From Alphaproteobacteria bacterium (GTDB lineage Bacteria > Pseudomonadota > Alphaproteobacteria > RF32 > CAG-239): a stretch of 56,932 nucleotides of DNA. The notes beneath the pieces are model-generated. The model saw nothing but the letters and a program-made list of their open reading frames with translations, was not told the origin of the DNA and did not search any database. The position numbers and the translations under genes were made by a program. Of the stretch, positions 43,136-56,932 are shown one piece after another. The DNA lies in assembly GCA_017935485.1 (NCBI GenBank), contig JAGBHO010000001.1, forward strand, positions 1 to 56,932, given 5' to 3'. How positions within the stretch are numbered: the first letter of the stretch is position 1; the number at the start of each line of letters is the position of its first letter.

Positions 43136-43954
43136 ATGAAGAGTGGCGGCGATTTTGTTCATCTGAGCAATAATTTGGCGGAGTGTAAAATTTCTCTTTG
43201 GGGCGGAAACCTCATGTCATATCGCCCCAAAACTGAAAAACACGATATTTTCTGGCTCGGCAGCCGCAATAAATTTGATAATGTTCAGGCAATTCGGGGC
43301 GGCATTCCTGTTTGCTGGCCGAGAGTCGCGGAAGAAAAATTAAACAATAATCTGCCCCGCCACGGTTTTGCCCGAATATCTCTCTGGAATTTGAGAAATG
43401 TGGTCGTTGACGAGGATAAAATAGAGGCGGAATTGTCTTTGGCGCCGTCTGCCTGCTTTAATGTCAATGCCGCTGCCACGCTTTTTATCAGGATAACGGA
43501 CAAACTGGAATATCGTCTGGAAACCGTGAATCACAGTGATGCCGAATTTGACTTTAGCGAGGCTCTGCACGCCTATTTTAATGTCAGCTCTGTTGAAAAT
43601 ATAACAATAAAAGGCCTTTCCGGTCACCGTTATAAAAATTCATTGGATGGAAATTTTTATACTTTGGATAATGATTTGAAAATTAAAGGTGAAGTTGATT
43701 CAATTTTTATCGGCCATGAAAATAGTGTGGAAATTGAAGATACGATGTATAATCGTGTCATCTCCGTAGAAAAATCCGGCTCGAATACGACAGTCGTCTG
43801 GAATCCTAATAAAGATTTGGCAGAAATGGAAAAAGGACAGTATAAAAATTTTGTATGCGTGGAACCGTCAAATCAGGGAAAATCTTATCTGCGCTTAAAA
43901 CCTCATGAAAAACATACAATATCAATGAAAGTACAAGTCAGAAAATTAACATAA
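43136..43954 (+). CDS. D-hexose-6-phosphate mutarotase (aldose 1-epimerase family)
   Basis: A 272-aa YeaD-like protein: FWLGSRNKFD...IRGGIPVCWPR, the catalytic His in SEALHAYFNVSSVE (about 145-158), and the C-terminal VVWNPNKDL...YKNFVCVEPSN with the catalytic Glu. It interconverts alpha and beta anomers of glucose-6-phosphate. The ATG at 43136 has GGGGAGG upstream; the frame is open for 200 more codons, but that part is antisense to the His-rich gene. Confidence 0.92.
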   Translation: MKSGGDFVHLSNNLAECKISLWGGNLMSYRPKTEKHDIFWLGSRNKFDNVQAIRGGIPVCWPRVAEEKLNNNLPRHGFARISLWNLRNVVVDEDKIEAELSLAPSACFNVNAAATLFIRITDKLEYRLETVNHSDAEFDFSEALHAYFNVSSVENITIKGLSGHRYKNSLDGNFYTLDNDLKIKGEVDSIFIGHENSVEIEDTMYNRVISVEKSGSNTTVVWNPNKDLAEMEKGQYKNFVCVEPSNQGKSYLRLKPHEKHTISMKVQVRKLT

Positions 43955-44014
43955 AATAAGTCAACCTTTGAACCTTAAGGGGAAGAGGTCAAAATAGCCT
44001 TTAATGTCATTACG

Positions 44015-44611
44015 TTACGGCATCCTTTCAATAAACCGTCGTAACGTACTTCTCTGAACGCCGAGGATTTTGGCAATTTGGGATTTTGAGATGCCTTTGG
44101 CGAGTAAATTCCGCACTTTTTTAGCATTTTTTGAGAGTTTCAGCTTTTTTGATTCTGCGGAAAAGGGACGACCGAGCTTTTTTCCTGAGGCTTTGAGATT
44201 GGCAAGAGATGATTTTGTACGTTGGGATATTAGGTTTCTCTCTATCTCCGCCGCCAAGCCAAAAGCAAATGCCAAGACTTTGGATTGTATATCGTTGCCG
44301 AGACGGTAGTTTTCTTTCAAAGTCCAGACCTGACAGTTTTTATTTAAACATGTCTCCAAAATCCGCATAACCTCAAGCAAAGATCTGCCTAAACGGGATA
44401 TTTCACAAGAAATAAGGATGTCATTTTCCTGCAAATTCTCTAATACTTCACCAAGTTTGCGGTTTTTCAGCGCTTTTCGGGAAGATATTTTTTCCTCAAC
44501 CCATTCATCAACCGTCAATTTGTGTTTTTTGGCATATTCCTCAATCTCAAAACGTTGGTGTTCAAGGGTTTGCTTAGCGGAACTTACTCTAATATAACCA
44601 ATAACAGCCAT
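44015..44611 (-). CDS. Serine recombinase (resolvase/invertase family)
   Basis: A 198-aa protein with the catalytic Ser in GYIRVSSAKQ (about residue 10), EISRLGRSLLE and a helix E region (LAAEIERNLISQRTKSSL), then a C-terminal Hin-type HTH (GISKSQIAKILGVQRSTLRRFI). It probably inverts or resolves DNA between short crossover sites. AGGAG precedes the start. It stands at the border between moderate-GC DNA and an AT-rich island, so it may be the island's recombinase. Confidence 0.93.
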   Translation of the reverse strand: MAVIGYIRVSSAKQTLEHQRFEIEEYAKKHKLTVDEWVEEKISSRKALKNRKLGEVLENLQENDILISCEISRLGRSLLEVMRILETCLNKNCQVWTLKENYRLGNDIQSKVLAFAFGLAAEIERNLISQRTKSSLANLKASGKKLGRPFSAESKKLKLSKNAKKVRNLLAKGISKSQIAKILGVQRSTLRRFIERMP

Positions 44612-44835
44612 TGTTTTCTCCTTAAAATTTCTTAAAAATACCGGTCATTTTATTAGAACGATAAAATCAACCAAATTTTACAACTTTCGCACTTTTTCTT
44701 TTTGTAAAAAAATTAAGCAAAAATAATAGGTTGTTTTCTTTTGCTCCGGGATACATCTGTCTTTTAGGCAGCCGGTCACAATCGTTGGTTTGTGTATAGT
44801 ATGATTGATATTCACTAATCATATTGGAGAGAATA
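44612..44835. other. AT-rich spacer between recombinase and lipoprotein genes
   Basis: Holds the divergent start regions. TGTATAGTATGAT near 44794-44806 is a possible -10 region for the lipoprotein operon. No gene supported. Confidence 0.4.
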
Positions 44836-45237
44836 ATGAAAAAAATATTAGTTATGTTTTTAACGGCAACATACTTGAGTGGTTGTGCATCTATTATTGC
44901 GGGAGACCACAAAACAGTTAATTTGACAACAAACAACGGAGAAAGTGTTAATGCAAGTGTGTTCTCTAAAAGTGGTGAACAGAAAGTACAACTCCCAGGA
45001 ACAGTAACTGTTCTTAGAGATAGTCAAGATTTAACAATTACTGTAAATGAAGATTCGTGCGTTAATTCCACAACATCTGTAACTTCTTCTAAGATCGAAC
45101 CTTGGTTTTGGGGAAATCTATTAACAGGAGGCATCTTTGGATCGACAACGGATTCAATGACTGGAGATATGTGGACATACGATGACAACATCACAGTGTA
45201 TGTTGATAAAAAAGCTTCTTGCTCAAAAGGTAAATAA
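44836..45237 (+). CDS. Small lipoprotein, paralog 1
   Basis: A 133-aa protein with a lipoprotein signal (MKKILVMFLTATYLSGC; lipidated Cys at residue 17) and a beta-rich mature domain ending in SCSKGK. It shares with the next gene CASI/CATM, LP.TV.L, IGSTTDA-like STTDSMTGDMWTYDDN and the terminal Cys, so the two are paralogs. GGAGAG precedes the ATG. Family not recognised; overlaps the next gene by one base. Confidence 0.75.
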   Translation: MKKILVMFLTATYLSGCASIIAGDHKTVNLTTNNGESVNASVFSKSGEQKVQLPGTVTVLRDSQDLTITVNEDSCVNSTTSVTSSKIEPWFWGNLLTGGIFGSTTDSMTGDMWTYDDNITVYVDKKASCSKGK

Positions 45238-45623
45238 TGAAAAAAATATTTTTAATATGCTTTATCTTTCTTTTATCTAGTTGTGCAACAATGTTTCATG
45301 GAGGGACACAATTGGTAAATGTTGTTCCGGCCAATGGAGAAAAAACAGATGTTGAACTAACCAATCAGGAAGGAACAAAACATTTAGTATTGCCTACAAC
45401 TGTTGCATTAAAAAAAGGAAAAGGAGATGTTACAATAAGGGTTAAAGAGACTAAGTGTCATAAATCTTCAGTTAGAAATTATCAAGAACGAATGGACTTA
45501 GTATTTTTGGCTAATTATTTTAACCTTTCAATCGGCTCAACTACAGATGCTGCTACTGGTGCTATGTGGCACTATGATAACAACATGGTTGTTCCTGTTT
45601 ATAAAAAAGATAAATGCAACTAA
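45237..45623 (+). CDS. Small lipoprotein, paralog 2
   Basis: A 128-aa lipoprotein (MKKIFLICFIFLLSSC) related to the preceding one, with STTDAATGAMWHYDNN matching its STTDSMTGDMWTYDDN. Outer- or inner-membrane attached. The stop overlaps the DUF4105 gene start by 10 bases, so all three are one operon. Perhaps partners or substrates of the DUF4105 protein (inference). Confidence 0.75.
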   Translation: MKKIFLICFIFLLSSCATMFHGGTQLVNVVPANGEKTDVELTNQEGTKHLVLPTTVALKKGKGDVTIRVKETKCHKSSVRNYQERMDLVFLANYFNLSIGSTTDAATGAMWHYDNNMVVPVYKKDKCN

Positions 45624-47203
45624 AAATACTTAAAACACTAATTTTAATTTGTTACTTTTGTATAGCAATAAAACAACAGGTTTTTGCAATTGATATATCA
45701 TATTCTTTATTGAGGCAAAGTAATACAACTTCAACAAAAGAGTGGTTAAATTTATTGCATTACCATAAGGGAGAAAGTGTTATTAATCCTGATAGCACTT
45801 TTTTCCTTGCTAAAGATGGTCATAAAAATCCAGAAGCCGAATTTGCAGCAACCATCCAAGCAATCTCAGATAAAGATAATAAAATCTATTGTGAATATCC
45901 GGCCCGCACAAATTTTATTATTTCATCAATGAAGTTAAATCCTAAAGATTTTGACTTTTCCCAATGTCCTAAATATCAAGAATTTTTACAAAAGGTTCCG
46001 ATGGATACGGTTGCTATTGTTTTTGCTGCAGAAAACAATCAAAGTCCATCATCTATTCTTGGCCATAGTTTCTTAAAAATCAGCGGTCAAAGCAAAACCG
46101 GATTGAAGGAACATTCTTTTAGTTATTTTGCAGCTTTTGATACCGCAAACAGCATCAAATTTTACATAGATGTAATGACATCCGGTATTGATGGTGCCTA
46201 TATCTTATCTCCATATAGAAGCAAAGCGGATGAATATGTGTTTAATGAAAAACGTTCCTTATGGGAGTTTGAATTAGATTTATCAGAACAAGACAAACAA
46301 CGCCTAAAAGATCATCTTTGGGAATTAAAAGGAAAAAATATTCATTATAAATTTGTTACACATAATTGTAATACAGCTCTCATCAGTATTTTGAAAGTCG
46401 CCAACCCATCATTTGAAACCCAAACCATAAAACCGTTTATTACCCCGGTTGAATATGTTCAAGATCTTTATAAACAAAAGAAAATTAAAGACATATCTAT
46501 CGAGCCGACAGTTTATGTTAAAAATAAAATTAATCAATATGGCGTTAAAAACATATTATCATCCAATAAATCAAGTCGCATAGATATTAGTTATGTGAAT
46601 AGTTCAGAATATGATAATATCCTATTTCAGCTAAGCCCCGTATATCAAGATATAAAAGATATTAATTCAGCATATTATGATGATATTGAAAGCAAAATTG
46701 GAGAGGTTACACTAGGGTATAATATTCAAAAGAAAAAGGTTGCAATTCAAAATATTAATATTTTGAAAATGCAATCTATTTTAGACTATTCTATCCAAAA
46801 TGATTTTTCTAAATATTTTAGGTTAGCTTTGGAAAACAGTTGGAATGACGTTAGTACTCACCTAAAACCGACTGTTGAATTTGGCTTAGGATATGGAAAG
46901 TCTTATCATAATGTAACAGCTTATTTTTTGCCAAAGATTGGTTACCGCTACAATCAGTATGGAAATTTTTATTTGACACCAGAGATTGGCCTCAATACGC
47001 AAATTACAGAAAATATCAAATTAATGACATCTTACGCTGAATACTTTGATAGTAAAGATGATAATAGAGGTTATGGCGCCCGCTATAGCTTTTATGTAGG
47101 ATACAAATTCACCGACAATAAAAATATTTATTTAAATTATAAACATTACACCCAAACGGATAATCAAAATTCAATAATATTCGGATTTTCTCAAAATTTT
47201 TAA
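45614..47203 (+). CDS. DUF4105-domain envelope protein
   Basis: A 529-aa protein with a signal peptide (ILICYFCIAIKQQVFA) and a papain-like DUF4105 domain. The conserved His is in SPSSILGHSFLKI (about residue 150) and the Cys in THNCNTALI (about 251). The C-terminal third (380-529) is beta-rich (LEFGLGYGKSYHNVTAYFLP-type strands alternating, final Phe), so possibly an outer-membrane barrel. In Bacteroides a DUF4105 protein, Lnb, N-acylates lipoproteins; co-location with two lipoproteins makes a similar link possible. Strongly AT-rich. Confidence 0.82.
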   Translation: MQLKILKTLILICYFCIAIKQQVFAIDISYSLLRQSNTTSTKEWLNLLHYHKGESVINPDSTFFLAKDGHKNPEAEFAATIQAISDKDNKIYCEYPARTNFIISSMKLNPKDFDFSQCPKYQEFLQKVPMDTVAIVFAAENNQSPSSILGHSFLKISGQSKTGLKEHSFSYFAAFDTANSIKFYIDVMTSGIDGAYILSPYRSKADEYVFNEKRSLWEFELDLSEQDKQRLKDHLWELKGKNIHYKFVTHNCNTALISILKVANPSFETQTIKPFITPVEYVQDLYKQKKIKDISIEPTVYVKNKINQYGVKNILSSNKSSRIDISYVNSSEYDNILFQLSPVYQDIKDINSAYYDDIESKIGEVTLGYNIQKKKVAIQNINILKMQSILDYSIQNDFSKYFRLALENSWNDVSTHLKPTVEFGLGYGKSYHNVTAYFLPKIGYRYNQYGNFYLTPEIGLNTQITENIKLMTSYAEYFDSKDDNRGYGARYSFYVGYKFTDNKNIYLNYKHYTQTDNQNSIIFGFSQNF

Positions 47204-47768
47204 TTTTTCTTACGCTCGACATTTTTCCCCAACAGTCATTAAGTTAAATCCTTGTTTTTGTTTTAACTTCCAATACGAAAGCAAAATGTCATCAAAAAGT
47301 AGAAAAAAAGGGGCTCGCGGATGTGATTTTTTCCGACATAATAAAAATAGTTAATGGATAAACAACTATTTATGAAAAGAAAATGTTACATACTGTTTAA
47401 GCAGAAAAAATTACAGAAAAAGGAAAGTCAAAATGAAACAATTGTCCTGGCTGTATCCAGCTTATTTTAGCAAAAATAAATCGTCATCAATGTCAAAAAC
47501 TTTTATTTTAAGCAAGTTTCAAATCGAATTTTGATAAAAAATAATCCCCAAAGGCTATGAAAGATTGTTTGTGATTAACATGTTGATTTATAAAGAAAAA
47601 CATCCAAAATGACGGTTCGTGAATTATAGCTGGAAGAAAGAACAATATTTTAAGCAAAATTTAATTATAAATTATGAGCTGTTTCTTAGGCACCGTGAAG
47701 AAATTCTCATTATGAAGGAATGTCTTGTGCTGATTAAGAACTTGACGGAAAATGAAATGACAATTTAG
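47204..47768. other. Gene-poor, degraded AT-rich region
   Basis: No convincing gene. A 34-codon open frame near 47434-47535 has a GGA-type site but no recognisable product. The stretch looks like decayed mobile or accessory DNA between the DUF4105 operon and the GT8 gene. Confidence 0.45.
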
Positions 47769-47886
47769 TTACTTCGCCACACTGCATTCATCTATTAAAA
47801 TTAGTTTTTTGTTTTCTTTCGCGATATCTTTCAGATGCTTTGTAAATCCGCTTTTAGAGAATATCCCGAAAAGTACCCCAAAAAGC
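47769..47886 (-). pseudogene. 3' fragment of a DUF234-type ATPase gene
   Basis: The minus strand encodes about 38 residues in one frame, LFGVLFGIFSKSGFT then KHLKDIAKENKKLILIDE, ending at a TAA at 47769. This resembles the C-terminal end of archaeal-type ATPases with a DUF234 nuclease-like tail. An in-frame stop lies just upstream and the rest is missing, so it is a remnant. Confidence 0.5.
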
Positions 47887-47922
47887 TATATATGAAATAA
47901 GAGCTATCATAGTACTGTTTAG

Positions 47923-48819
47923 CTATTTACATTTTTTTGCTATAAATTGAGGAAAAAATGGAGTTAGAGAAGCAATATTCCACCAATCTTGATAATATCT
48001 GGCAACACTTTCATTCCAAGGTTTGGCCCCAATATAATGGATTATTTGCGGCTTAGTATATACATCATTGAGTTGATGTTTTGTAATGATGTTTTCATTT
48101 TGCATAGCATACCATATTTCATCTGTATCGTAAAGCTTACCGTAATTGGCGGCCATGGCATTATAAATCGGGCTGATGTGAAGAATTCTACCTTGACAAG
48201 TATAATTAACAATATCTTGATCTGAAAAAGGAAATTCTTCTGTTATGAGAGGCAGCCACTTTTGATATATTTTGTCTTTTCTTATTTGATTAAGGTTCCA
48301 AAGAGAAACTCCTATATTAACGTAGTTACCCAATAAAGTCTCAAATTTATATTTTTTCCAACAAGAATATTTATTATAATGATAGTCAAACACTGATTTA
48401 ATATTTAAGTTATCTTTTACAGCCCCAATATAATAATCTTTTATATCCAGATGATATAGTTGAGATAAATCAGATTTAAATATGACATCAACATCGCTAT
48501 ATATAATCTTATCTATTTCTGGAAAAAAGCTGTGTAACATAAATCTGTAATAGGTTGCTGTAGAATTATAGCCCCAAACATAACCTTCTTTAAAAAGATC
48601 ACCGGCCTGCTTAAAAATAATTGTTGAATTTGTTGAATATTTGTGAACTAAATTTGCTAATTGAGTTTGAGAACAATCGTCAACATCATCAGACACAATA
48701 CAATAAATATGATAAGTATATTTATTTTGTGAAGAAATTAATAAACTTGTAATAGCAACACCGGCCTGCATCCATAAATTATGATCAAAGCAAAATGCAA
48801 TATTTATAGAATTATCCAT
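47923..48819 (-). CDS. Glycosyltransferase family 8 (LgtC-like)
   Basis: A 298-aa enzyme with the GT8 start (NIAFCFDHNLWMQAGVAITSLL), the DxD donor site in IIYSDVDVIF (about 105-112), NIGVSLWNL and the C-terminal HYIGAKPWN motif. It uses a nucleotide-sugar to extend a glycan or glycolipid. It is divergent from the operon starting at 48956 and equally AT-rich, so may belong to the same island. Confidence 0.9.
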   Translation of the reverse strand: MDNSINIAFCFDHNLWMQAGVAITSLLISSQNKYTYHIYCIVSDDVDDCSQTQLANLVHKYSTNSTIIFKQAGDLFKEGYVWGYNSTATYYRFMLHSFFPEIDKIIYSDVDVIFKSDLSQLYHLDIKDYYIGAVKDNLNIKSVFDYHYNKYSCWKKYKFETLLGNYVNIGVSLWNLNQIRKDKIYQKWLPLITEEFPFSDQDIVNYTCQGRILHISPIYNAMAANYGKLYDTDEIWYAMQNENIITKHQLNDVYTKPQIIHYIGAKPWNESVARYYQDWWNIASLTPFFPQFIAKKCK

Positions 48820-48955
48820 GAATATAATCCCTATTTTAACTAACGCAATAATATCATATAATGATTAAAACAAAGTAAAAATATTATCAACTTGACTTCG
48901 GGGTATAATATTATAAAGTATCCACATATATGAATAAATTGGTAGGAAAATATAA

Positions 48956-50179
48956 ATGACTATTTATATCAGCAAAAAAGACTTTAGAGAAGAAGAATAC
49001 GAATTTGTAGAAAGAAAAGGTAAGGGACATCCTGATACACTTTCCGATGCGTTGGCAGAAACATTCTCAGCAAAATATTCCAAATATACTAAAGACAAAT
49101 TTGGAGCTGTTTTGCATCACAATTTTGATAAAGTTGGTTTATTGGGCGGTGCGTCATATGTAAGATTTGGAGAGGGATATCTGACAAAGCCGATACGTGT
49201 TTTGCTCAATGGCCGAGCTTCAACAAAATTTGCAGATACAGTTATTCCGATAAAAGAGATGCTGATAGAATGGACGAAAGAATTTATGCATCAAGCCTTT
49301 CCGATGATTGATGTAGATAAAGATTTAGAGTTTCATTACAATTTAAGTAATCAAAGCAGTCCTGGAAAAACAGAGGAAGATAAAGCCCAAAAAGGTACCA
49401 GAAAATATTGGTTTGAACCCAGAGGTTTATTTGATTTACAAGAAACAAAAAAATTATTTTCTAATGATACATCAATGGGGGTAGGATATGCTCCATATAC
49501 AAAGCTTGAACAATTAGTTCTTGCAATAGAAGGAAAACTGAATAGTAAAGAATTTAAGCAAAAATATCCGTGGGTCGGATCAGATATCAAGATTATGGGG
49601 TTTAGGTTCAGAGATAGTTTTGACATTACAATGTGTATTCCGCAAATTTCGATTTATGTGGCTAATATTGATGAATATAAGCAAAATATGGAATTTGTCA
49701 GAGGAGTTATCTTCTCAATAGCTCAAGAAATGGGAATTGAAAAATTTGATTTACATACCAATACCCGTGATAATTATGAAAATTCTGAATTATATTTAAC
49801 AGTAACAGGGTCATCAATTGAAAGTGGTGACGAAGGTCTCGTCGGTAGAGGAAACCGTATAAATGGTATAATATCGCCGACAAGATTGATGAGCATGGAA
49901 GGTGCTTGCGGTAAAAATCCAGTATATCATATAGGTAAGATATATTATGTGGCAGCCAACGAAATTAGCAAAAAAATATATAATAAATTTAATATCAAAA
50001 ATGAAGTCGTATTGATAAGTCAAAGTGGTAGAGATTTATTAGACCCGTGGATTGTTTGTGTATCTGTTCCTGCTGATTTTAATAATATTGCAAGTATAGA
50101 GGATTATATTAAAGAAGAAATTTCCCGCATACCAGAATATACAAAACAATTAATAGAGCAACAGCTACAAGTGTTTTAG
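48956..50179 (+). CDS. Archaeal-type methionine adenosyltransferase
   Basis: A 407-aa protein. [18 protein letters not shown] (residues 18-35) and [19 protein letters not shown] (about 289-307) match the archaeal MAT family, which differs from bacterial MetK. It makes S-adenosylmethionine from methionine and ATP. In a bacterium it is unlikely to be the housekeeping enzyme; as first gene of the AT-rich operon it probably supplies SAM locally. Weak promoter elements (TTGACT at 48892) lie upstream. The AlaRS-like gene follows after 8 bases. Confidence 0.9.
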
Positions 50180-50187
50180 GACTACAA

Positions 50188-51231
50188 ATGGACAGTATTT
50201 TAAAAAGAACAAATCTAAAACATATAAAGGATAATGAGTTTAATTTAAATACTTTTTCATCAAAAAGTAATGGTGCTAAAGGAATGGATAAGATACATTC
50301 CTTTTTTGAACATGCGTTGTTAATATCTCCGGATAGTATAAAAAGACCCAAAGGTGATACGACTTTTTTTACAACGGCTGGAGTCCAACATTTGGAAACA
50401 ATGAAAAGAGAGGGAAAAGATATTGCAAATTGCTCATTTTCTGTCTACCAGCCGTGCATAAGAAGCCAATATATGCCTTATGTGCAAGAAGGAACCTCTA
50501 CATCATTTATCAATTTTTCATCTGTAGTTTTAGGTAACGATAGTGATACTTTTGTAGAATACACAAATTCCTTTATAAGAATGCTGCAGGCCAATGGCGT
50601 TAATTATGAGGATATTCGCTTTATTTTGGATGAAAATGTAGAATCAAAATGGTATGATAAAAAATTTTATAGTAATAATATTTCTTTATTGGTCAATGAT
50701 ATAGAAGTAGGGGAAAGTATTTTTGTCAGGGATTTCCCTTATAAAGATGGTAGCCAAACGACATTAATTGAAGTTGGTATAGGAATAGAACGGCTGAATT
50801 GGGCATTAGGTAATTCTATATATTATTTTCCGGATTTCACAAAAGTTTATAAAGAAAATGAGAATATAGAAAAAAATAAAGTCTGTTCTTTAATTGATTG
50901 TTTGCGTACAGCTACATTAATTGTAGGCTCCGGGGTTATACCGTCACCTAAGGATCATGGATATAGGGCTCGTAAGTTGATAAAAAAATTTAATGATGAA
51001 AATAATGATAAACTTAATAAAAATGAACTTATATCTATTGCTTATGATGAATGGGAAAAAAAGGGAGTAAAGCATTGTTTGCAAAAAGACATTGTCCAGC
51101 TAATTATAGATAGGGAGGTTGATCGTCTTAACCGAGTAAATCAGTTAAAAAATCGATGCAATCAAAATTATGATAATAAGGAAATAAAAGATCTGGTGGC
51201 ACAAATTTTGGCCAATCAAGGAGAAAGATAA
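50188..51231 (+). CDS. Stand-alone alanyl-tRNA synthetase-like catalytic domain
   Basis: A 347-aa class II synthetase paralog. Matches to AlaRS: FFTTAGVQHLE (about 60-70, motif 1 region, cf. FTNAGM), QPCIRSQ with the motif 2 Arg (about 88-94) and TSTSFINFSSVVLGN. Motif 3 is EVGIGIERLNWAL (about 195-207), and GSGVIPSPKDHGYRARKLIKK recalls AlaRS DGxxPSNxGRGYVLRRxxRR. It stops there: the editing and C-Ala domains are absent, so it is too short for housekeeping AlaS (~870 aa). Likely activates an amino acid for a small-molecule acceptor, as MshC and PoxA-type paralogs do (inference). Confidence 0.8.
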   Translation: MDSILKRTNLKHIKDNEFNLNTFSSKSNGAKGMDKIHSFFEHALLISPDSIKRPKGDTTFFTTAGVQHLETMKREGKDIANCSFSVYQPCIRSQYMPYVQEGTSTSFINFSSVVLGNDSDTFVEYTNSFIRMLQANGVNYEDIRFILDENVESKWYDKKFYSNNISLLVNDIEVGESIFVRDFPYKDGSQTTLIEVGIGIERLNWALGNSIYYFPDFTKVYKENENIEKNKVCSLIDCLRTATLIVGSGVIPSPKDHGYRARKLIKKFNDENNDKLNKNELISIAYDEWEKKGVKHCLQKDIVQLIIDREVDRLNRVNQLKNRCNQNYDNKEIKDLVAQILANQGER

Positions 51232-51232
51232 A

Positions 51233-51889
51233 ATGACATTATTTTTAGGTGGTGGCGGAGACATAGAAGACAGTGTTCGGATAGATAAAGAATTTTTCAA
51301 TTATATAGATGAGAAAAGTAAAATCCTTTATATTGCAACAGCTTGTGATTTTACAACTTATGAGAACTGTTTCAAGTGGTTTTATTCCTTAGTTACCAAA
51401 TATGTTTCTTTGTCTGAAGAAAATATAATAATGTTGTCAGATGAAGAAAAAATACCGGAGCTATCCGAATTTAAGGCTATTTATATTGGCGGCGGAAATA
51501 CATATAAGTTATTAAATTACATATGTAAGACAGGATTAAAAGATAAAATAGTAGAGTTTCTTGATAAAGGTGGATTAATCTTTGGCGGCAGTGCAGGAGC
51601 AATTATTTTTGGTACAACAATAGAAACTGTTGCTGAGGAAAGAGAAAATTATCCAGACAATTTATCTATTAGTTATGTAAAAAAATATGCAATTAGATGC
51701 CATTATCAAAAAGAAGAAGATAATCTATATCAAAATCTATCAAAGTCATTAAAACAAGATATATTAGCTATACCGGAAGATGGTGGAATAATCATAGATA
51801 AAGATGATATAAAAAAAATAATAGGAGATGTGATCTTGTTTTCGGCTAATCAAAAACACATTTTACGGTTAAACAATGCAGAAATTTAG
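51233..51889 (+). CDS. Peptidase S51-family protein (dipeptidase E/cyanophycinase-like)
   Basis: A 218-aa protein with the class-I-glutamine-amidotransferase-like fold and the S51 nucleophile elbow GGSAGAII (Ser about residue 121), preceded by YIGGGNTYKLL. Family members cleave Asp-X or beta-Asp peptide bonds. In this operon it may hydrolyse or trim an amino-acyl conjugate. GGAG precedes the start; the 3' end overlaps the PHP gene by 14 bases. Confidence 0.87.
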   Translation: MTLFLGGGGDIEDSVRIDKEFFNYIDEKSKILYIATACDFTTYENCFKWFYSLVTKYVSLSEENIIMLSDEEKIPELSEFKAIYIGGGNTYKLLNYICKTGLKDKIVEFLDKGGLIFGGSAGAIIFGTTIETVAEERENYPDNLSISYVKKYAIRCHYQKEEDNLYQNLSKSLKQDILAIPEDGGIIIDKDDIKKIIGDVILFSANQKHILRLNNAEI

Positions 51890-52663
51890 CATACATACGC
51901 ATACGGTAGGTTATGATGGAAAAAATACTGTTGCAGAAATGATACAGCATGCCATAAAACTAAAATGGGAAGCAATAGGCATATCAAATCATATAGAATT
52001 TCACGAAAATTTGCCATTGTTTCATTCTATGTTTTTTCAGATTATCACAAAGCAAAGGAACAATATAAGAGAACAATTAATGAAATAAAAGAACTGGCTG
52101 CAAAAGAAAATATACAAGTTTTAGCCGGATTTGAAGTTGATTTTTTTTAAGGAAAGAAATGGCGCCATGATTTTGAAGCTCTGCTCAAAGAAATAGAATG
52201 TGATTATCTGATAGGTTCCACGCATTGTTTATATAATGAAGATGAAAGTATAATTATGCATCTATATGATTATACCAGACCAAAAGTTCCGAATAAAGAA
52301 TTTATAGATAGTTATTGGATAAATATTAAAGAGGCTATAAAAAGCGGATATTTTGATATGATTGCTCATATTGATTTAATTAAGCGTTTTGGGTTAGATA
52401 AAGAAGATAAGATTGAAATAGCAGAATTGTTATCTAAATATAAAGTTTCAACGGAACTAAATACTGGGAATTATGACAAAAATAAGATGTTTTATCCGTC
52501 AGTTGAACTGTTAAAAATACTAAAGGATTATGATGTTCCTATAATGATTAGTGATGATGCTCATTCTATAGAAGCATTAGGACAAAATTTTAGTCATGCC
52601 GAGCAACTACTCACGCAGATGCAATATACAAAACGAATAACTGTTGAGGACTTGAAATTATAA
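51876..52663 (+). pseudogene. PHP-domain phosphatase (histidinol-phosphatase-like), frameshifted with a nonsense codon
   Basis: Frame 1 (51876-) reads MQKFSIHTHTVGYDGKNT with the metal-binding HTH motif and IGISNHIEF. The frame then breaks at a T6 run near 52030; adding one T would restore SDYHKAKEQYKR and GFEVDFF. A TAA at 52148-52150 then interrupts the same frame before KKWRHDFEALLKEIECDYLIGSTHCL, and the rest continues to 52663 (IAHIDLIKRFG, ELNTG, ISDDAHS). The repaired product would be ~262 aa with PHP metal sites. Either decayed, or the assembly has errors. The next gene starts on its stop codon. Confidence 0.8.
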
Positions 52664-53856
52664 TGAAGTTATTGTTTATTGCATTTGAAAATATGGAAAC
52701 AGGTTCTAGCCAACTAGAGAGGTTAGAGTATCAACTTACAACATTATCAAAAAATAATAAAATATCTATATTATGTTTAAATCAGAATGATAATACATAC
52801 GCCATTAAGCAAAAATATCATCAAGTTACTTTTTATTACCACAGGATAGAATATAATGGTTGGAACGTATTAAATACTGAAGAAATTATAAGATATGTGA
52901 AGAATATAGACGAACAAAATAATTTTGATTTGATTATTCAAATGATGGAAGTTTGGGATTTACTCCGAGAATTTTCTCTTAGTTTTTATAAAACACGAAA
53001 GTTTGTTGCTATAATTCATGCTATGCCTTTTTTAGGTACACCGATAAATCTAAAAAAAGATATTAATATTCATTGTAAAGAAAGATTAAAAAAATTAGAT
53101 AAAAAAAGTATGAAATATGAATATATTATAAATCACTATAAGGAAGTTTCTGAAGTTTTTGATAAAATGAAAGTAATTGCAGCTAATAATACAGTAGCAT
53201 ATTATCTTCAACATTACCTAAAAAATATTGAGTTTTGGACATTTGAAAGTTTTTATCCTAAAAAAGAAGAAATATCAAAAACAGAAACTAACTCATTTGA
53301 TTTTTTATATATGGCTCGTATAGAAGAAGGAAAGGGTTTAGAGTATTTAGAAGATATATTTTTACGTTTGTCACAAAAAGCAGAACGAAAACTAAAGATT
53401 GGTATTGCAGGACGTATTGATGATCATTATTCAAAAGAGAATATGGAAAAAATATTGGCATTACGCCTGAATAACATAGAAATAAGTTATTTAGGATGGG
53501 TAGATAAAGCTAAACAGCGAGAATTGTTCAGTTCTTCAAAGATTTTTTTATATCCGTCCATATATGATACATATTCTATAGTATTGAGAGATGCAATCAA
53601 TTTTGGAATGGTAGCAGTAACGTGGAAAGTGCCGTTTACATTGATTAATTATAGAGATTGTCCATCTGTAAAAATAATACCTTATAAAGATTCTATAAAA
53701 TTTGCAGAAATTGCAATGTGTTGTTTAGAAGATAAAGAAAGAATAGCCTTATCTGCAAAAGAATATATATGTCGTCAGCCTACAGAAGAGGATATTTGTA
53801 ATAAAGATATAGCAATATATGAAAGCATAGCAAAGAAAAATGTATATAATAAATAA
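52663..53856 (+). CDS. Glycosyltransferase family 4-like
   Basis: A 397-aa GT-B enzyme. The C-terminal donor domain has YMARIEEGKGLEYLED (about 222-237), GIAGRIDDHYS, ISYLGWVDKAKQRELFSSS and FLYPSIYDTYSIVLRDAINFG. The usual EX7E is altered to DTYSIVLRD. N-terminal acceptor domain starts MKLLFIAFENMETGSSQLERL. Likely joins a sugar to a small acceptor. The start overlaps the PHP stop (TAATG) and the end overlaps the PIG-L gene by 17 bases. Position next to a PIG-L deacetylase recalls MshA/MshB and BshA/BshB. Confidence 0.87.
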   Translation: MKLLFIAFENMETGSSQLERLEYQLTTLSKNNKISILCLNQNDNTYAIKQKYHQVTFYYHRIEYNGWNVLNTEEIIRYVKNIDEQNNFDLIIQMMEVWDLLREFSLSFYKTRKFVAIIHAMPFLGTPINLKKDINIHCKERLKKLDKKSMKYEYIINHYKEVSEVFDKMKVIAANNTVAYYLQHYLKNIEFWTFESFYPKKEEISKTETNSFDFLYMARIEEGKGLEYLEDIFLRLSQKAERKLKIGIAGRIDDHYSKENMEKILALRLNNIEISYLGWVDKAKQRELFSSSKIFLYPSIYDTYSIVLRDAINFGMVAVTWKVPFTLINYRDCPSVKIIPYKDSIKFAEIAMCCLEDKERIALSAKEYICRQPTEEDICNKDIAIYESIAKKNVYNK

Positions 53857-54595
53857 AGAAATAGAGAGTTTTTTTCCACAAGAATGTGCTGTGATCTTTA
53901 TGCATGCACATCCTGATGATGAAAGTTTTTTATCTTTTGGACTAATTTCGGAATTACATCGGAGAAATATAGATGTATATGTATATTATTGCGCAGCAAC
54001 AAATATAAAAGACAACAACCTTACTCAAAAACGGCAAGATGAAGCTAAAAGAGCCTTGGATGAATTACCGAATGAAAATATTATATTTTTAGATTTTTGT
54101 GATTCCTGTTATAAGAAGGAGAATGCGTTATCTCAAGCAAAACAGAGCGATATATTGAATAGTATATTCCAGAATCTTCGCAATATACAGAAGTCTGTTA
54201 TATTAGTTTCATACGATAAAAATGGCGGATATGGTCATATTGATCATTTAATAGTGCATGGGTTAGGGCGAGATATAAAAAATAGATGTAAAAAAGTAAA
54301 GCGGCTATACGAAATAACACTTGCTCGTGACATATTTAATAAATGGATAAAAAAGAATGCACATCAAGCTCAAAAGTATTTACCGCAAACTCAATATTGG
54401 AATAAAGAATATGGATTACCTACAGAAGAAATAGATTATGTATATATTCTTTCATTACAACAAGCTCTAGAAAAAAGAAAGAAATTATCTGTTCATTCGA
54501 GCCAAATATCATCAGATGAATTCCCCTTATGCTTAACAGAAGAAGATTTTTTATACTTGTTTGGAAAAGAGTATATAAAAGAAGTTATTAAATAA
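53840..54595 (+). CDS. PIG-L/LmbE-family deacetylase
   Basis: A 251-aa zinc hydrolase with HAHPDDESFLSFGLI (about 21-35; His and second Asp are metal ligands) and GYGHIDHLIVHG (about 130-141; metal His). Relatives deacetylate N-acetylglucosamine conjugates (MshB, BshB, PIG-L). Probably removes an acetyl from the product of the preceding glycosyltransferase, exposing an amine for amino-acid attachment (inference). Last gene of the operon. Confidence 0.92.
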   Translation: MYIINKEIESFFPQECAVIFMHAHPDDESFLSFGLISELHRRNIDVYVYYCAATNIKDNNLTQKRQDEAKRALDELPNENIIFLDFCDSCYKKENALSQAKQSDILNSIFQNLRNIQKSVILVSYDKNGGYGHIDHLIVHGLGRDIKNRCKKVKRLYEITLARDIFNKWIKKNAHQAQKYLPQTQYWNKEYGLPTEEIDYVYILSLQQALEKRKKLSVHSSQISSDEFPLCLTEEDFLYLFGKEYIKEVIK

Positions 54596-55079
54596 ATAAA
54601 ATTTTATGACGTTAATTTTGTTCAGTAAAAAATTAAACGCAATATTTTGTCTTTCAATTAAAACTGGCGTCCTAATCTTAATACTATCATTATAGACCGG
54701 GCATTTGCAATCTTTTTGTCTTTAGTCTGCAAAGAAATCCAAATTTGTTTTTTTACGATATAAGGGAATTAGTAGCATCTGATGGAAAGTTTTTTTGATC
54801 CCTCTAAACTGATATTTTTTCGTCATCGGGAATATCTACAATATAAAATATAAGTACAGATAACTCTACTGCTTACCTCTAGAGTAGAACGTGCAATCAA
54901 AATACCCTGACCAAGGTTTATGACCTTAGAAAAAATACGAGCAGGAATTAGCAGAAATGTACCTTATTATTAACGGCATGGATGACGATTTGCGGCAGAT
55001 GATGACGATAGAAAGAATTTGTTGATACTATTCATCTTTTATGGTAGGTGCTAATTTATAACCTATAATAGAGGATGCC
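54596..55079. other. Intergenic region with coding relics
   Basis: No intact gene. A fragment at 54930-55025 reads KKYEQELAEMYLIINGMDDD then LRQMMTIERIC before a stop. An earlier stretch near 54788-54850 reads FFDPSKLIFFRHREYLQYK. Both look like pieces of broken genes. Confidence 0.4.
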
Positions 55080-56666
55080 ATGACAGTTGTGAAGCCACAG
55101 GAAAACTATGATGATATTTTTACAGATGATAAGCTAAATATAAAATCATCTGTGGTCGATTTTGCTCATTTAATAGAGCAAGATGCTTATATTGAAGGTG
55201 GTGTTTCAAAGGTTTATTCAATAGCAGCTGAATTTGGCATTGGAAAAACATTTTTCTGCGAAAAACTAGAACAAGTTTTAAAGACGGATAATATAAAGGT
55301 TGCCAAATTGAATATTTAGGAGCTGGATTTTTATGATAATCCTCTTGTGCCGTTGTTGGCTAAATTAAATGAGCTTTATAAACGTAAGGGAAAAGCTCTG
55401 CCTGTAAGAATTATAAATTCTATGGGAGATTTGGCTAGTAAATCTCTTATAAGTTTGTGTGAGATAGGCGTTAGAAAAACTATAGGATCTGAAACGGTTG
55501 ATGTAATTAAAGACAAATTTTCTTCTGGATATCTATATGATGATTTTAAAATGTATGAATATTCTTTGAAGGAATTAAAACAAACTCTAATTAAATGGGC
55601 GAGGAAAAATAAGAAGCCTATTATAATTATTATTGATGAATTGGATAGGTGTCGGCCGGATTATGCCGTGAAAACTTTGGAAGTATTGAAGCATTTCTTC
55701 GATGTGTCAGGATTTGTGTTTGTTTTGGCATTAGATGAGAAGCAATTAGAAAGCTCTGTTAAATGCTTATTTGGTACAAATAATTTTGAAGGCTACAAAA
55801 GAAAATTTATTAATAATACATTTTTACTACCAGCTCCAGATAGAAAAGCATTTACTGAATTTTTATATGATAAATTTAATATGGCAGTTTTAATACAAAA
55901 AATTCAAAATGATAACAGAGAATTGGTGTTTAAAATAAGAATTGATAGCTATCGCGATGTGATAAATCAACAGTTTATGGGAATACAGAATCAAGAAGAC
56001 ATTGCTCAAAAAAGAGATTTTAATAGTTGGCAAACTTCAGAGCTTATTATTAAACGATATTTTTCAGCATATAGTAATTGGTTCCAATTTACATTGAGGC
56101 AAATGGAACAGGTTTTTGACAGATTGGTTATGTTTACAAAGGAAATAGCCGCGAGCAGTGAATTATTTTCACCAGACTTGGCTGTATTATTAGTCTGTTT
56201 GCATGAATTTGATATTAGCATTTATAATAAATTACGAAATTATAAAGGCAAAGTAATAAACGAAATTTCTTCTCAAATATCTAGGAACAAAGAAGATTTA
56301 GGAGATAGGGAGGTGGAGTTTGATCGAGGTTTTGTTCCTGCAGCACCTCAAGTTTTAGGATATTCTGTAGATCAAACACCTCCGAGTGTTGCCATAAAGG
56401 TTTTTATTGAAGATAATGTCGATAGATTTTTTAATATAGAGCCAGCTCCGGCACATTCGCTAAAATGGATTGCCGAATTCAATGGATGTGATACTGTTTG
56501 TAACGGCATATTAAATAATCAGAGAATAGCATTAATAATACATTCAAAGAGAGATGCTCAATGGGAAAATCCAAAACCAGATATAAATACTGTAGATACC
56601 TTTGATTTGGATAAATTTAAACAGTCATATTTTGCTAAAATGGATTTCATTTCTCATTTTGAATAA
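55080..56666 (+). pseudogene. KAP-family P-loop NTPase, interrupted by an amber codon
   Basis: The first 79 codons include the Walker A segment AAEFGIGKTFFCEKL. A TAG at 55317-55319 interrupts KLNI-stop-ELDFYDNPLVPLL, where many KAP proteins have a Trp or Tyr-like residue (TGG to TAG is one change). The same frame continues to 56666 with Walker B IIIIIDELDRCRPDYAVKTL and VFVLALDEKQL, typical of KAP NTPases, which occur in membrane-linked and defence systems. A re-start at 55347 is possible but would lack Walker A. GAGG precedes the start. Confidence 0.78.
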
Positions 56667-56679
56667 ACTTAAAATGTTT

Positions 56680-56932
56680 TTATAGTTCATTAAACCATTT
56701 TTCATTTATTTCGACTTGTTCAATAATTTTGACACCTAAATTGAATTCTTTTAATTTATTAGCTAGATCATGCCCATCAATTAGGTCGATGATTAAAGCA
56801 CCATCCCTTCGGGCTTCATCTTTGGCATCTTTAGAAAACACGCCAGTTGTAATAATTAAACCTTTGTCTGCCCGTCCCATTATAGCACCACGAAAATCTC
56901 TAATTACAGATGAAGGAACAGTTCCTTCATAT
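56680..56932 (-). CDS. Mrr-like restriction endonuclease, 3' part (cut by window edge)
   Basis: The minus-strand frame is open from the window edge to the stop at 56680 (84 codons). It reads FRGAIMGRADKGLIITTG then VFSKDAKDEARRDGALIIDL, matching the end of the Mrr catalytic domain (FRGA...GRADKGxxITTGxFS..A..EA). The ATG at 56880 is internal to the domain, so the true start is outside the window. It faces the KAP gene with 13 bases between, suggesting a defence locus. Confidence 0.82.
   Translation of the reverse strand, partial: YEGTVPSSVIRDFRGAIMGRADKGLIITTGVFSKDAKDEARRDGALIIDLIDGHDLANKLKEFNLGVKIIEQVEINEKWFNEL

Follow-up and report, generated by a model that had tools for sequence, protein, structure and literature searches.

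AcmF of ascamycin biosynthesis in Streptomyces is a truncated alanyl-tRNA synthetase (AlaRS)-like protein of 370 aa (PMC4257720), which has the aminoacylation and tRNA-recognition domains only (PMC12945691). It moves alanine from the Ala-tRNA made by AcmD to dealanylascamycin, and its product is cleaved by AcmE (PMC12945691). AcmF lacks the Asp-plus-Asn reading of G3:U70; its Glu232 is essential, and the N219Q and D232E changes are said to disrupt aminoacyl-AMP formation (PMC12945691). In E. coli AlaRS, the amino group of alanine is held by Asp235, and the Methylomonas enzyme relies on Arg68 and Phe89 (motif 2), Arg232 (motif 3), and Val204 (PMC12143591). AlaRS also carries a Tyr-Asp-Ser/Thr-His-Gly peptide (PMC6451123). 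MshC, a tRNA-independent aminoacyl-tRNA synthetase paralog (PMC2922099), couples an amino acid with an amino sugar and has MshA and MshB as partners. Free-standing AlaRS cores are already known from AcmF, plasmid gene clusters, and phages, and the protein described here, P0001, is not unique in this respect.

The window, i.e., the whole stretch of 56,932 nucleotides that was analyzed, encodes P0001 on the forward strand. Motifs were searched by running block profiles of free-standing AlaRS-like proteins on P0001, with 1000 shuffles as a control. The gene and its elements are listed below.

50188..51231, + strand: P0001, AlaRS-like core protein of 347 aa; aminoacylation domain at residues ~33-210 and helical AlaRS-type tRNA-recognition part at ~211-341.
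50350..50388, + strand: class II motif 1, residues 55-67, KGDTTFFTTAGVQ; best position in P0001, score reached by 0/1000 shuffles.
50449..50529, + strand: motif 2, residues 88-114, QPCIRSQYMPYVQEGTSTSFINFSSVV; R92 kept, the rest degraded; 3/1000 shuffles.
50650..50721, + strand: residues 155-178 with W155, the GPCGP equivalent (158-164), E173-x-x-E176 (E-x-x-N in AlaRS), and I178; 9/1000 shuffles.
50764..50796, + strand: motif 3, residues 193-203, LIEVGIGIERL; E195 in place of the alanine-binding Asp, R202 kept; 0/1000 shuffles.
50935..50988, + strand: AlaRS-type recognition helix, residues 250-267, VIPSPKDHGYRARKLIKK; PSN of AlaRS changed to PSP (P254); 0/1000 shuffles.

The P0001 gene is a genuine ORF. 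Its ortholog in another genus (locus L003 in genome G382) likewise encodes 347 aa with 92% identity, and the dN/dS value of 0.23 for this pair indicates purifying selection. The host has a single full AlaRS, located on a different contig. A sequencing artefact or a truncated AlaRS was ruled out by the equal-length ortholog, the purifying selection, and the host's own AlaRS. P0001 stops at residue 347 and lacks the editing and C-Ala domains, and no editing-domain match was found for it in Pfam or NCBIfam. Together with the class II motifs and the AlaRS-type helix, these data confirm the free-standing AlaRS-like core noted in the preliminary description. An AlaX trans-editing protein was ruled out by the absence of an editing domain.

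The profile searches placed P0001 near AlaRS, below the family cut-offs: the match to NCBIfam TIGR03683 (archaeal AlaRS) was 2.8e-7 with a score of 29.2 (cut-off 744.7), and that to Pfam PF01411 was 8.7e-5 with a score of 21.7 (gathering score 30.3). When a profile was built from P0001 plus its ortholog, it aligned with AlaRS catalytic fragments in hhalign over residues 19-269 with an E-value of 6.9e-13, compared with a best E-value of 0.008 among 60 column shuffles. The profile similarity was equal for full AlaRS and for the free-standing phage/Rhizobium family. P0001 shares the catalytic fold, the motif arginines, and the AlaRS-type recognition helix with AlaRS (PF01411, TIGR00344, and TIGR03683); it differs from them by the lack of the GPCGP segment and of the editing and C-Ala domains, by the replaced alanine-binding Asp, and by its scores under the family cut-offs.

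The structure of P0001 was predicted using AF2. An alignment of 12 sequences gave a pLDDT of 41, and one of 43 rows, with extra phage relatives, most of them split into N and C parts so that they aligned more readily, gave a mean pLDDT of 59.5. Residues ~230-320 were mostly above 80 pLDDT, while residues 1-66 and 81-121 were poor. All of the top 18 Foldseek matches of the model were AlaRS. In VIA, AlaRS chains were the closest, with Z of 11.7-13.6 over 249-277 residues (Z 13.6 with 258 residues), and the next fold, GlyRS, reached Z 9.1 over 138 residues; past residue 300, AlaRS were the only aligning chains among those listed. This moderate model thus suggests an AlaRS aminoacylation-domain fold. 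Since the AF2 input consisted entirely of AlaRS-like sequences, the model leans to this fold and is supporting evidence rather than independent proof. Taken from sequence and model, the results support P0001 as a diverged AlaRS aminoacylation domain followed by the beginning of the tRNA-recognition domain.

The active site of P0001 is partly preserved. By alignment, the places of Methylomonas Arg68, Phe89, Arg232, and Val204 are occupied by R92, I108 or F107, R202, and I178, respectively. Motif 2 begins with QPCIR (residues 88-92) and is degraded past the Arg: the adenine-stacking Phe is changed to I108 or F107, and the motif Glu to N109. E195 stands for the alanine-binding Asp (Asp235 in E. 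coli), and the E-x-x-N Asn is changed to E176. As regards the ATP- and amino-acid-binding residues, both arginines are kept, and the Asp and Asn are each replaced by Glu. The active-site residues, including E195 and E176, are identical in both orthologs. The replacement of GPCGP by RDFPYKDGS, proposed earlier, proved to be misplaced. An ungapped alignment pairs W155-YD-KKFYSNN-ISLLVNDIEVGES of P0001 with W-TD-GQIGGYC-TEFFKDDVEIGNI of the free-standing family, with weaker block support (9/1000 shuffles), which sets the GPCGP equivalent at about residues 158-164 (KKFYSNN); RDFPYKDGS (residues 181-189) forms, in the profile alignment, the hairpin loop preceding motif 3. In the recognition helix, P254 aligns with position 359 of the A. 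fulgidus chain, and the Asn of PSN is absent. The Tyr-Asp-Ser/Thr-His-Gly recognition peptide is absent from both orthologs. Judging by these residues, the elements that read G3:U70 are lost in P0001.

P0001 is the second gene of a six-gene operon transcribed in one direction, in which adjacent genes are only a few bases apart or overlap slightly, in the order S-adenosylmethionine (SAM) synthetase, P0001, S51 hydrolase, PHP, GT4, and PIG-L. The operon lies within a mobile block with the following features.

47926..54645, no strand assigned: mobile cassette block; 94.4% DNA identity to L003 in another genus, flanks differ.
47923..48819, - strand: GT8 glycosyltransferase, divergent, within the conserved block.
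48956..50179, + strand: archaeal-type S-adenosylmethionine synthetase (MetK), first gene of the operon; PF01941, 4.5e-111.
51233..51889, + strand: S51 (peptidase E-like) hydrolase with a GGSAGA nucleophile motif.
51876..52663, + strand: PHP-domain (histidinol-phosphatase-like) gene, with a frameshift and an in-frame stop here.
52663..53856, + strand: GT4 glycosyltransferase; PF00534, 8e-14.
53840..54595, + strand: PIG-L family deacetylase with AHPDDE and GHxDH zinc motifs.

The dN/dS values across the cassette genes ranged from 0.06 to 0.23. The cassette MetK is the second SAM synthetase of the host, which also has its own bacterial one. MshB proteins were the only solved relatives found for the PIG-L protein. 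The frameshift and in-frame stop of the PHP gene are present in L002/L004 as well as in the window, and the pathway may be incomplete in these copies; in L003, the gene is intact (266 aa). No carrier-protein gene was seen in the cassette. A tRNA or riboswitch partner was ruled out, as the window contains no tRNA gene and the region 43500-56932 gave no Rfam match. The gene set suggests a pathway in which an amino-sugar conjugate is built and an amino acid is then attached to it.

Compared with the published description of AcmF, P0001 is of similar length and is likewise limited to the aminoacylation and tRNA-recognition domains. Both proteins carry Glu instead of Asp in the alanine site (Glu232 in AcmF and E195 in both P0001 orthologs), both lack the Asp-plus-Asn pair for G3:U70, and both genes belong to a small-molecule cluster with an adjoining hydrolase gene. 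They differ in the Asn position, which is Gln219 in AcmF and E176 in P0001, in the absence of a partner AlaRS (AcmD-like) from the P0001 cassette, and in gene content, since the cassette includes GT4, PIG-L, PHP, and MetK with no sulfamate or nucleoside genes seen. Because the Asp-to-Glu and Asn-to-Gln changes of AcmF go with lost alanyl-adenylate formation, the donor of P0001 may be an aminoacyl-tRNA rather than an amino acid and ATP. The preliminary description had suggested an amino-acid-activating enzyme with a new acceptor; the new acceptor is supported by the fold, profile, and gene neighborhood, whereas activation is less well supported, R92 and R202 being kept but E195, E176, and motif 2 past the Arg being altered.

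Our tentative preference is that P0001 is an AlaRS-derived catalytic core acting as an AcmF-like aminoacyl transferase outside translation, in a mobile small-molecule/glycan cassette. An aminoacyl-tRNA, probably Ala-tRNA charged by the host AlaRS, would be bound by its end, with a small acceptor also seated in the old AlaRS pocket. E195 would hold the aminoacyl group, which would be passed to an amine, and an amide would be formed. We infer the acceptor from the neighboring genes only: GT4 would add an N-acetylhexosamine, PHP may provide a phosphatase step in making the amine, and the PIG-L deacetylase would unmask it. The S51 hydrolase would serve in immunity or turnover by cleaving the aminoacylated product. 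This reading is favored by the AlaRS homology in profile and model, by the features shared with AcmF, by E195 and E176 fixed in both orthologs, by the tight operon kept as a block across two genera, by the dN/dS of 0.23, and by the closeness of PIG-L to MshB. It is also favored by other free-standing AlaRS-like genes found in clusters with sugar, ATP-grasp, and peptidase genes on Exiguobacterium and Peribacillus plasmids. Against it stand the Glu rather than Gln in place of the Asn and the lack of a second, AcmD-like AlaRS in the cassette; in addition, R92, R202, and W155 are kept, which would be compatible with adenylation.

These plasmid clusters (L038, L039, and L040) contain two AlaRS-like genes, asparagine synthetase A (AsnA), ATP-grasp, methyltransferase, MFS transporter, and S66 (MccF-type) peptidase genes, a content that suggests an aminoacyl-nucleoside or an aminoacyl-sugar as the product. 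They resemble the P0001 cassette in the free-standing AlaRS-like core, the sugar/ligase genes, and a similar GIGIERL motif 3. However, the Peribacillus protein keeps the motif 3 Asp, a second AlaRS, AsnA, and the S66 peptidase are present, and no MetK or PIG-L is annotated.

The retained R92, R202, and W155 would suit an ATP-dependent, tRNA-free aminoacyl-amino-sugar ligase, with the job of MshC on a class II AlaRS scaffold. Such an enzyme would adenylate an amino acid, perhaps one other than alanine, and couple it to the amine that the PIG-L deacetylase exposes. The neighboring genes mirror MshA (GT4), the phosphatase (PHP), and MshB (PIG-L), MshC is an example of a tRNA-independent paralog for the same step, the altered pocket (E176, I178, and E195) could accommodate another amino acid, and the tRNA-reading elements are gone. 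Nevertheless, motif 2 is degraded past the Arg (I108 or F107, and N109), the Asp-to-Glu change accompanies lost activation in AcmF, and the helical tRNA-recognition part is kept, which would be superfluous for a tRNA-independent ligase. MshC itself is a class I, CysRS-derived enzyme, in contrast to the class II, AlaRS-derived motifs and fold of P0001. On the basis of the AcmF literature, such a ligase was ranked second, after the AcmF-like transferase, and is regarded as possible, if doubtful. It is unlikely that the cassette, spread as a mobile unit, encodes a new class of low-molecular-weight aminoacyl-amino-sugars, similar in build to mycothiol or bacillithiol, in animal-gut alphaproteobacteria; the enzyme attaching the amino acid would be a convergent counterpart of MshC, of class II and derived from AlaRS, and the compound would perhaps derive in part from S-adenosylmethionine.

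A minimal AlaRS that charges a tRNA would have its model in the free-standing cores of ~290 aa encoded by dozens of viral contigs, by a huge phage, and on Rhizobium plasmids ('alanine--tRNA ligase-related protein'; 93 Rhizobium records with a match). These proteins have the same domain content as P0001, an AlaRS core that lacks the editing and C-Ala domains and has a common deletion around the GPCGP segment, and P0001 is equally similar in profile to them and to full AlaRS. The Rhizobium and phage proteins keep the catalytic Asp and Asn and, for the most part, the recognition peptide. The phage family retains the Asp in 48/49 sequences (one had no motif match) and the Asn in 49/49, and usually has a (Y/F)DTHG-like recognition peptide (L017, L018, L027, L030, L034, L037, and other viral loci among L019-L107). 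In several contigs, the phage gene lies among tRNA genes, and most of the nearby tRNA-Ala read carry G3:U70. From the kept Asp and Asn, the usual peptide, and the nearby tRNA genes, the phage protein is probably a minimal working AlaRS. P0001, in contrast, has lost the Asp, Asn, PSN, and YDTHG-like peptide largely kept there, is encoded in a glycan-type operon in a window with no tRNA gene, and belongs to a host with a full AlaRS; it is highly improbable that it charges a tRNA in this way. A non-catalytic or regulatory paralog (cf. HisZ and Pol gamma B) or an aminoacyl-carrier-protein ligase would agree with the several changed catalytic positions, and class II paralogs in such roles exist (PMC9437257). 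This is judged unlikely, given that both orthologs retain the two motif arginines and the glycines of motif 3, with an acidic residue in the key position, and that no gene for a carrier protein was seen in the cassette.

The conserved 292-aa AlaRS-like protein P0002 (L008-L010), present on many Rhizobium plasmids, adjoins a RES/Xre toxin-antitoxin pair and shares 53.5% identity with a protein from a huge phage (LR745206).

If the AcmF-like reading is true, P0001 would extend AlaRS-based aminoacyl transferases beyond ascamycin biosynthesis to a setting with a sugar deacetylase, and Glu in place of the alanine-binding Asp in an AlaRS core would serve as a marker for hidden aminoacyl-conjugate pathways. 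By the motif table, proteins with Glu would then be sorted as likely transferases and phage proteins with Asp as likely minimal synthetases.

P0001 was present in 3/153 genomes of the order. The region 47224-55014 has 99.5% DNA identity to L002 in genome G003 of another species, and the host AlaRS of G000 shares only 79% protein identity with that of G003 and 73% with that of G382. The G+C content of the cassette is 28-34%, compared with ~44% across most of the window. Since the DNA is 99.5% identical while the host AlaRSs are 79% identical, the cassette appears to have been exchanged between species, and recent horizontal transfer is favored; a contaminant common to the assemblies is less likely. 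The mobility may be explained by a serine resolvase/invertase-like gene (44015-44611), which in the window lies on the left side of the cassette, and by a tyrosine-recombinase-like ORF on its right side in L002 (L002 10470-11069).

One scan of genome contigs with P0001 returned close relatives only, the other coverage being Pseudomonadota. In viral contigs, no relatives were found with P0001, MetK, or PIG-L as single queries, and plasmid searches with GT4 and S51 gave no matching cassette. The nearest MetK relatives (43-45% identity) were found on Streptomyces and Megaera (Rickettsiales) plasmids, in other clusters of small-molecule type; no AlaRS-like gene was listed in these neighborhoods. 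These MetK relatives (L012, L013, and L014) are accompanied by xylose-isomerase-like, Gfo/Idh, kinase-like, and NUDIX genes.

A defence system was ruled out for the cassette, as none of its genes matched in PADLOC; the sole match was a KAP-family NTPase outside the block. This gene (55347-56666), right of the cassette near the contig end, matched PDC-S20 best and QatA/PifA more weakly, and is a candidate defence gene.
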